Positions 1 through 31,437 of a stretch of 64,000 nucleotides of DNA are shown piece by piece; the first letter of the stretch is position 1; each line of letters starts with the position of its first letter. The stretch covers positions 1 through 64,000 of the forward strand of contig NZ_KQ959924.1 in assembly GCF_001553035.1 (NCBI RefSeq), read 5' to 3'. Source of the DNA: Gemella haemolysans. Lineage in GTDB: Bacteria > Bacillota > Bacilli > Staphylococcales > Gemellaceae. Made by a program: the position numbers and the translations under genes. The notes beneath the pieces are model-generated. The model did no database searches, was not told the origin of the DNA, and saw only the letters and a program-made list of their open reading frames with translations.

Positions 1-71
1 GAGTTTTCATATACACTTTGTTAAAATTTAGGTCTTTTGGATCAGCCCCAAAGAAATATAGTATAAATTAA
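1..71. other. Window edge, no gene called
   Basis: Both strands carry an open frame across this edge: a plus-strand frame ending in TAA at 69-71, and a minus-strand frame entering from the same side. Either could be the end of a neighbouring gene. The bidirectional terminator that follows fits a convergent plus-strand gene, but too little is visible to choose. Confidence 0.3.
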
Positions 72-7622: not shown

Positions 7623-7687
7623 ATGAGATGAAATTTAGTAACAATGCTGTAAGAAGTTATACAATAAATAAAAGAAAGAGGTACTTG

Positions 7688-15573: not shown

Positions 15574-15670
15574 TTACAAATCTCATCAGAAAAGATATTT
15601 TTATAATATTTAGAATTAAAATTATATTTTTAAGATTATGTAAATAAAAGATAAAAGGTGATTCGAAATC

Positions 15671-15778
15671 TCCAAATTTTAAATAATTATATGAGAGTTC
15701 ATAACCGCAGTGTTTTTTGATATCTAAATTCGCTTTATAAAAGCTTTTTAGAAATCTAATAAACTGTGTGGGATTAAC
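15671..15778 (+). repeat. Structured intergenic repeat, copy 1
   Basis: About 105 bp shared with 21752-21863. The conserved blocks are ATATGAGA, then GATATCTAAATTCGCTTTAT, then CTTTTTAGA and ATCTAATAAAC. The last three can fold into a ~17-bp hairpin around the TTCGCTTTAT loop (here with two mismatches). No ORF is shared. A second strong hairpin follows 50 nt downstream. The gap 15574-15670 shows nothing else. Confidence 0.6.
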
Positions 15779-15827
15779 ATCTCTTTTTTATGTTACTATT
15801 TTATTTGACTCATAGTACAATGATAAC

Positions 15828-15880
15828 AGATAAGAAGTCCCGAATTCCGTAGGAGCTCGGTGATTTCTTATCTTTCTTTT
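15828..15880 (+). terminator. Strong plus-strand terminator without a known gene
   Basis: AGATAAGAA (15828-15836) pairs with TTCTTATCT (15865-15873), with an inner CCGA/TCGG stem and a T-rich tail on the plus strand. No plus-strand gene precedes it. It may end an RNA carrying repeat copy 1, or one from a weak TTACTA-17-TACAAT promoter at 15793-15821. Confidence 0.65.
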
Positions 15881-16416: not shown

Positions 16417-16554
16417 TATTATAAAAAGAGGCCGCGATGACTAATTTAAAAGGTAGCATCGCCGAAGTGATTAAATTCACTGGGGTTATGTCGAATAGGC
16501 ATAACACTGTCATTAGAAAATGCCCATTTTCTTCATGGTGAGCTTTTTATAATA
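16417..16554 (+). ncRNA. Lysine riboswitch (L-box), compact P2
   Basis: Five-helix layout: P1 perfect 12 bp (16417-16428 / 16543-16554), P2 GCGATG/CATCGC (16434-16439 / 16457-16462), P3 AGTGA/TCACT, P4 GTTATG/CATAAC, P5 AGAAAAT/ATTTTCT. The conserved strings ATCGCCGAAG, CTGTCA and GGTGAGC match known lysine riboswitches. Loop 2 ATTTAA (16444-16449) is complementary to loop 3 TTAAAT (16471-16476), giving the expected P2-P3 kissing contact. P2 lacks the usual long extension. It controls lysA through the following terminator. Confidence 0.85.
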
Positions 16555-21718: not shown

Positions 21719-21751
21719 CTTTGTAATATAAAATAGAAGTTAACCCAAAAG

Positions 21752-21863
21752 TTCAAAACTTTTAAAAAGTTTATATGAGAACTCATGAATGTAGTGGTTT
21801 ATTGATATCTAAATTCGCTTTATGTTAACTTTTTAGATATCTAATAAACTTTGTAGGAGTGAC
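21752..21863 (+). repeat. Structured intergenic repeat, copy 2
   Basis: Partner of 15671-15778. GTTTATT-GATATCTAAA (about 21797-21813) can pair with TTTAGATATC-T-AATAAAC (about 21832-21849), a near-perfect 17-bp hairpin with one bulge around a TTCGCTTTATGTTAAC loop. It sits directly upstream of a terminator and the alr-like gene, an arrangement like an aptamer plus expression platform. Confidence 0.6.
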
Positions 21864-21912
21864 TTAACAAAATCGATTTCTCAAAATCACGATTTTTGAG
21901 TCACTTCCTTTT
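21858..21912 (+). terminator. Terminator/attenuator directly upstream of alr
   Basis: Two-part hairpin: outer AGTGACT/AGTCACT (21858-21864 / 21899-21905) and inner CAAAATCG/CGATTTTTG, then CCTTTTATC. It ends only ~20 nt before the alr ATG, so it either ends the dapH operon or attenuates alr. Confidence 0.7.
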
Positions 21913-23011: not shown

Positions 23012-23073
23012 GAGAATGATTCGAAAAGATCGATTTCTTAGAAATCGTGATTTTTGACTCACTCTCTTTTTTT
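23012..23073 (+). terminator. Terminator of alr
   Basis: Long interrupted hairpin with 26-nt arms ending GATTTC/GAAATC at the tip, followed by seven T residues. Its inner part (ATCGATTTCT...ATCGTGATTTTTGA.TCACT) resembles the hairpin upstream of alr. Confidence 0.85.
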
Positions 23074-31161: not shown

Positions 31162-31186
31162 ATTAAGTAAATTAATATGTGAAACA

Positions 31187-31405
31187 TTGAAGAGATAAGT
31201 AGATTATAATTGATTCAAAACAGAGAGCTTTCGGTGGGTGTGAGAAAGTAAGAAGAGATGTAATTGAAAATGGTCTCGGAGTAATAATTATCTAATAGGT
31301 AATTACGTCAGTGCGCGATATAGCACAGCGGTATGAACACGTACCGATTAAGGTGGATATTTATATCCATAAACATGGGTGGTAACACGATAAACTCGTC
31401 CCTAT
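31187..31405 (+). ncRNA. T-box leader, methionine-specific
   Basis: tRNA-sensing leader. The conserved T-box core ATGGGTGGTAACACG (31375-31389) has a TGGT bulge matching the ACCA end of a tRNA with discriminator A. A Stem I with GAAA-ATG-GTCTCGG places ATG (31270-31272) as the specifier codon, which fits the downstream metA. Uncharged tRNA-Met should stabilise the antiterminator and allow metA transcription. The specifier was picked by position, not by folding software. Confidence 0.85.
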
Positions 31406-31437
31406 TGCATTAACTTGCAATAGTGGCGAGTTTTTTT
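31392..31437 (+). terminator. T-box-controlled terminator
   Basis: AAACTCG (31392-31398) and CGAGTTT (31427-31433) with an inner CTATTGCA/TGCAATAG stem, then a T-run. It overlaps the antiterminator half of the T-box. Confidence 0.9.

Follow-up and report, generated by a model that had tools for sequence, protein, structure and literature searches.

What kind of sequence recurs at 15671-15778 and 21752-21863 in the first 64,000 nucleotides of a Gemella haemolysans contig (the window), a folded RNA, a mobile repeat, or something that combines the two? A preliminary description had noted about 105 bp shared between the two places and had read it as an uncharacterized structured RNA or a small non-autonomous repeat. 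The similarity is real, with 81% identity over ~100 bp between copy 1 (15671-15778) and copy 2 and a BLAST E value of 3.8e-20 for copy 2, a value independent of the covariance model introduced below; the shared blocks ATATGAGA, TTCGCTTTAT, and TCTAATAAAC and the hairpins were also found as claimed. The element is not, however, merely present twice. A genome-wide search of its own genome (G000; 1.89 Mb in 82 contigs) with copy 1 returned 41 BLAST matches, nearly all 79 to 92% identical, placing at least 40 copies there. Both halves of the initial reading thus proved apt, as the element is a high-copy interspersed repeat with a structure kept by compensatory change, and we consider it probable that it is a dispersed, structured terminator module, forming a family of ~174-nt interspersed repeats.

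Aligning the family copies showed that the 105-bp stretch, although truly shared, is only the middle part of a repeat unit of ~174 bp, which is exactly 174 bp long in 36 of the 64 copies having both ends and which copy 2 retains in full. The family consensus, taken from the alignment of the G000 matches, runs GGGGTTGACCCAAAAGTCC...CATATGAGAACTCATAGACGCAGTGGTTTATTGATATCTAAATTCGCTTTATAAAAGCTTTTTAGATATCTAATAAACTGTGCGGGGATGACTCGACAAAATCGATTTCTACGAAATCACGATTTTTGAGTCACTCCC. Besides this unit size, the preliminary description had missed that the terminator hairpin belongs to the element, that the element is located at gene 3' ends, and that it is the target of an insertion sequence (IS). Table 1 gives the features assigned in the window, together with the IS copies of a related genome, G003.

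Table 1. Features of the repeat family in the window, and IS3-family copies in genome G003 (P1 to P3, helices of the element)
Feature	Position	Strand	Evidence
Copy 2, full-length, between an M20 peptidase gene and alr	21736..21908	+	Covariance hit 161.3 bits, E=1.9e-28 (score partly by construction, because copy 2 was in the model's own alignment)
Copy 2, motif GAAGTTAACCCAAAAGTTC at the 5' end (GGGGTTGACCCAAAAGTCC in the family consensus); recurs imperfectly and inverted at the 3' end	21736..21754	+	Alignments
Copy 2, P1, small hairpin ATGAG/CTCAT	21775..21786	+	Double-side changes in 3/5 pairs; 62% of cells paired
Copy 2, P2, hairpin in the center; its foot, (G)ACGCAGTGGTT...AACTGTGCG(G), is conserved	21791..21854	+	Double changes in 10 to 12 of 22 pairs
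Copy 2, P3, terminator-type hairpin; top is IS3-family target in relatives	21856..21908	+	Fold z=-4.7; IS junctions; main helix 93-94% of cells paired
T-rich tract after P3 of copy 2	21909..21912	+	Sequence; T enrichment at +1 to +8 over 64 copies
Copy 1, decayed: P1 and P2 kept, P3 lost	15654..15782	+	Covariance hit 78.9 bits, E=7e-13; BLAST family
Copy 1, P1	15690..15703	+	Fold
Copy 1, P2	15706..15771	+	Fold, z=-3.4 for 15671-15778
Host terminator hairpin beside copy 1, unrelated to the element	15828..15880	+	Outside covariance hit; no family alignment; fold z=-5.9
Solo P3 hairpin after alr	23016..23066	+	Covariance hit 43.8 bits; BLAST to P3 only
5' end of a further copy, cut by the window edge	1..49	-	Covariance hit 31 bits, cut off
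IS3-family copies in G003	L153 1634-3122; L205, L210, L220, L223, L229, L230, L235	both	Single-site target in P3

The repeat extends well beyond this genome. Relatives of G000 have it at 94 to 98% identity or in a diverged form, and in one of them, G003, 800 kb of sequence picked around known copies contained about 50 strong hits of the covariance model. Among 300 genomes sampled from the class, matches came from one further genus only, in 11 genomes. This second genus is most likely Streptococcus, and the plasmid records that match its version of the element belong to Streptococcus sp. FDAARGOS_192 (92%) and S. salivarius (96%); the plasmid and phage collections gave no match when queried with a Gemella-type copy. 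Within the second genus, the element occurs in 25 of the 40 sampled species (15 had no match), often with at least 20 scored copies per genome; in the richest genomes, the copies are 95 to 97% identical and first-look candidates number 80 to 110. The Gemella-type covariance model detects every second-genus locus searched, mostly at 60 to 90 bits, and the GC content of these copies is 36 to 50%. At one such locus (L312, covariance hits at 1402-1568 and 1710-1809), one of the copies is followed ~140 bp downstream by an Rfam S10 ribosomal protein leader. A separate covariance hit of 83.8 bits falls on positions 711-868 of L357, from an unverified wastewater contig (OR844999.1) labelled Staphylococcus phage.

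The family consensus folds at -56.7 kcal/mol, compared to -30.2±3.9 kcal/mol for shuffled sequences (z = -6.9), into three hairpins, of which P1 is small, P2 is long and central, and P3 lies at the 3' side and is present in nearly all copies. Against dinucleotide shuffles, 15671-15778 had a z of -3.4; in copy 2, z was -1.6 for the core and -4.7 for the 3' hairpin. The preliminary description had placed a hairpin terminator after both copies; the two hairpins exist, but the one at copy 2 is the element's own P3, whereas the one at copy 1 is unrelated to it. For the helices themselves we relied on an alignment (A2), also the basis of the covariance model, in which 24 diverse copies were taken from Gemella-type genomes and from their family. 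With the named structure, 85.6% of its cells are paired, compared to 80.6±0.5% after shuffling and at most 55% with slid partners, and 68 cells carry double changes, compared to 34.7±4.8 in the shuffles. Examples of compensation are one P2 pair that is A-U in 11 copies and U-A in 11, and one P3 pair that is U-A in 10 and C-G in 8.

Since such shuffles ignore the relatedness of the copies, weight falls on the slid-partner control and on the second genus. Forty distinct second-genus sequences from outside model building, which were fitted to the model and are therefore biased in its favor, had 88.1% of their cells paired (75.6±0.5% shuffled), 245 double-change cells (83.4±6.2 shuffled), and a covariation score of 0.286 (0.103 shuffled). 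When both genera were aligned with MAFFT and folded with unprompted RNAalifold (A4), P2 and P3 were recovered, with compensation in 17 of 31 pairs; on A2 alone, RNAalifold found P3 as the sole helix, and P2 was tested there as a named structure. The three helices thus show strong compensatory change across copies, and pairing is kept in further copies of Gemella-type genomes and again in the second genus. The foot of P2 (ACGCAGTGGTT/AACTGTGCG) is nearly invariant in both genera, which represent two bacterial families. The ends of the element are imperfect inverted repeats of ~18 bp, but covariation gave no support for pairing between the 5' and the 3' end; a 5' hairpin P0 in second-genus copies is weakly supported. 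Three variants (L156, L166, and L176) lack the inner part of P2, which fits a deletion between two GATATCTAA repeats. In Rfam 15, no family matched the repeat above its gathering threshold, nor did one at permissive thresholds, in keeping with its description as uncharacterized. The Rfam matches that the window does hold are ordinary: a lysine riboswitch at 16418-16553 before lysA, a T-box leader at 31178-31406, and one tRNA. Among named sequences, LysA of the window was closest to that of an uncultured Gemella MAG (72%).

Where do these elements sit? In G003, the median distance between an element and a gene 3' end is 20 bp, and 28 of 37 elements are co-oriented with that gene (p=0.0026), as counted in stretches picked around known copies with genes defined as open frames only. 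For the second genus, this distance has a median of 10 bp, and a gene 3' end adjoins 35 of 37 loci, with no bias in orientation (14 same, 21 opposite), which fits a two-way rather than a strictly one-way terminator. Over the 64 copies, the flanks are T at 55 to 66% in positions +1 to +4 and A at 45 to 56% in positions -1 to -4. A-rich left and T-rich right flanks at gene ends are the layout of a bidirectional intrinsic terminator, and P3, a stable hairpin followed by a T-run at gene 3' ends, has the form of an intrinsic terminator; the T-tract is nonetheless a bias rather than a rule and is located in the flank, outside the element. Only 4 of 41 elements in G003 lie in divergent intergenic regions (Fisher p=0.20), so that avoidance of such regions is a trend only.

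Orthologous sites without the element point in the same direction, since in most comparable alleles, drawn mostly from G000 versus G003 only, an ordinary stem-loop terminator occupies the same spot. The best case lies between dnaK and dnaJ, where G003 and G007 have the element, in the arrangement AAGGGAG-element-CTCCCTTTG or near it, and G000, G001, G002, G004, G005, G006, and G008 have none: G000 and G008 read AAGGGCTGGTAGCGTTATGCGCTAGCCCTTTG, and the outgroups G001, G002, G004, G005, and G006 have other hairpins. Compared in this way, the alleles show a polarized gain in which the feet of the terminator were kept and the top of its hairpin was exchanged. At another site (site 1), G008 has the element where G003 and G007 read GAGCGATTC...GAATCGCTC-TTATTTTTT, and at site 2 the element of G008 (L150 9137-9305, the orthologue of copy 2 at 21736-21908) is inverted relative to those of G000, G003, and G007. 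The immediate flanks of this inverted element show compensating changes. An exception to the pattern is L228, compared with window positions 7630-7656, where the element-free allele has no hairpin at the exact spot, although one lies just upstream. At a site near 40 kb, the direction of change is ambiguous, as two outgroups also have a diverged element there. At the G004 orthologue of window ~40.2 kb (L258/L263), an element of ~88 bp, whose symmetric ends read AGGGGCTGACCTAAAAGTAG...CTTCTGGGTCAACCCCT, is found where relatives have the repeat, and it is possibly a related short form of it. The orthologues of window ~15.6-15.9 kb (L148 in G003 and L149 in G007) contain an extra gene, followed by a terminator that resembles the element's ends. 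Since terminators evolve fast, part of the apparent replacement could be turnover. Even so, the location directly after stop codons and at the terminator sites of relatives suggests that the element most likely serves as the upstream gene's terminator, as far as its sequence and position can tell about termination in the cell.

P3 is also the target of another mobile element. This 1.49-kb IS3-family element, with an OrfA containing HTH_Tnp_1 and an OrfB containing rve, is present in seven full copies in G003, and 7/7 occupy an identical position in the P3 top, with both orientations represented. Its ends read TGAT(A/G)TGTACCC...CA, and TTT is duplicated; G000 retains remnants of it, and G007 has pieces at contig ends. 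With IS3-type OrfA and OrfB and all full G003 copies inside one repeat, it is a palindrome-targeting IS3-family element. Since its ends and its position differ from the repeat's own ends, nothing suggests that it moves the repeat. The situation resembles that of REP/BIME sequences with IS1397 and ISKpn1, two members of the IS3 family that insert specifically in REP palindromes (PMC1525189), in that a dispersed extragenic palindrome is the specific target of an IS3-family element; the repeat described here is larger and different, and so are the IS and its target sequence.

Other candidate mobilizers were considered as well. Y1/IS200 elements, and with them a system of the REP-with-RAYT type, are disfavored because the Y1 transposase gene, found in 5 of 9 genomes, is absent from the carriers G004, G006, and G007; the ends of Y1/IS200 elements are also unrelated to the repeat. 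An autonomous IS with the repeat's ends was sought among the wide end spacings in G003, which turned out to be internal IS3-family insertions or neighboring elements. The IS200-like (Y1) elements at L266, L267, L268, L270, L271, L272, L274, and L275 have their left end directly after ordinary terminators, in the order hairpin, T-run, and then TTAATGGCTTTAGCC, and are thus another terminator-associated mobile element.

How might such a module have spread? The transcribed element would be a compact 3'-end module, in which P2 with its conserved foot is followed by P3 as an intrinsic-terminator hairpin leading into the T-tract, and new sites would be gained when the element takes the place of a resident terminator's stem-loop rather than by simple insertion with target duplication. 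The spread itself may have involved either an enzyme that recognizes P2 in trans or template switching, driven by microhomology, at the feet of terminators. Taken without any mobile element, the second route would mean that host terminators spread by gene conversion or template switching, with palindromes that have A-rich and T-rich feet recombining, a reading that we hold to be possible, though not likely. Several observations suit it: one copy has unique flanks whose complementarity exceeds chance expectation (3/2000 shuffles); one orthologous site has the full element in G000 and a solo P3 in G003; orthologous copies are not always each other's closest; and no target-site duplication was detected over 64 copies, the mean direct repeat being 1.28 compared to 1.30 in shuffled data. 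Template switching at terminator feet accounts for the replacement, but less well for a spread across two families with a conserved P2 foot. This conservation in distant families, together with high copy numbers at 95 to 97% identity, needs a more active process, and microhomology of 5 to 8 bp is a weak driver.

The first route could take the specific form of a selfish "terminator-replacing" element, that is, a structured RNA or single-stranded DNA which would be recognized via the P2 foot by a hypothetical trans-acting enzyme, would replace host terminator hairpins without target duplication, would supply the lost function itself, and could in this way have spread across two families of Bacilli. 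We rate this specific scenario as unlikely. A classical miniature inverted-repeat transposable element (MITE) is likewise doubtful. As a non-autonomous derivative of a DDE transposon, it would be moved by a transposase recognizing the terminal inverted repeats, and gene 3' ends would merely tolerate its insertion. The imperfect ~18-bp terminal repeats and fixed ends look the part, as do the about 90 end-like sites in G000 (0 to 2 for a reversed control pattern), the copies that are 94 to 98% identical, and the occurrence of either orientation at one site (site 2, inverted in G008). The mechanism is nevertheless disfavored because the duplication is missing over the 64 copies and because the gain at dnaK-dnaJ removed the terminator top; moreover, among the end positions listed for G000, G003, and, in part, the other genomes, no transposase is bounded by the repeat's ends, the one IS detected lies inside the element and ends differently, and covariation backs local helices, not end-to-end pairing. 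That the element is primarily a functional trans-acting or 3'-UTR-derived RNA, such as a sponge or a protein-binding RNA whose P2 foot binds a partner and for which termination is secondary, appears improbable, for while P2 is constrained as much as P3, with a foot nearly invariant across two families, and termination alone leaves this selection unexplained, the dozens of copies, the turnover of sites between species, and the solo P3 copies are easier to understand for a repeat than for a dedicated regulator, the element has no known partner, and 15 of the 40 second-genus genomes have no match.

As a dispersed terminator module, the element can be set beside known repeats. Correia, ERIC, and similar small repeats of Gram-negative bacteria are 100 to 200 bp long, intergenic, and folded, and they affect transcripts; by description, the element resembles them as an intergenic folded repeat of that size. 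The nearest described repeat is the pneumococcal SPRITE, which resembles a terminator and lies close to the 3' ends of genes; empty sites for it could not be located (PMC3049150). Both are interspersed, have a terminator-like hairpin, are enriched at gene 3' ends, and have no established target duplication. SPRITE consists of one 18-bp duplex with a U-rich tract and AAAA/TTTT ends, has 28% GC and ~30 copies, and is nearly confined to S. pneumoniae and S. mitis; like BOX and RUP, it is almost absent from other streptococci (PMC3049150). Going by this published description, our element differs in its three helices P1, P2, and P3, its GGG...CCC ends, its GC content (36 to 50% in second-genus copies), and its wider host range. 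With BOX and RUP of pneumococcus, short repeats of modular or MITE-like build that have inverted ends and a folded RNA (PMC3049150), it shares the general design, but both RUP (107 bp) and BOX generate target duplications, and pairing takes place between their inverted repeats (PMC3049150), whereas the element described here has neither target duplications nor supported end pairing. The element is thus distinct from SPRITE, BOX, and RUP, as set apart by their descriptions, although it may be distantly related to them. No earlier description was found in the open-access literature (closed-access papers may hold one), and the repeat is a new family, distinguished from its nearest counterparts by what has been published on them.

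If this reading is correct, dozens of genes per genome in Gemella and, most likely, Streptococcus, two genera with common human commensals, would end in a single unannotated module common to both. This would offer a case, open to testing, in which mobile DNA takes over transcription termination, a core signal, with little lost because the element supplies the signal itself. The IS that targets a single site within a dispersed palindrome adds a strong Gram-positive parallel to REP and IS1397, and the covariance model could be used to annotate hundreds of candidate transcript ends.
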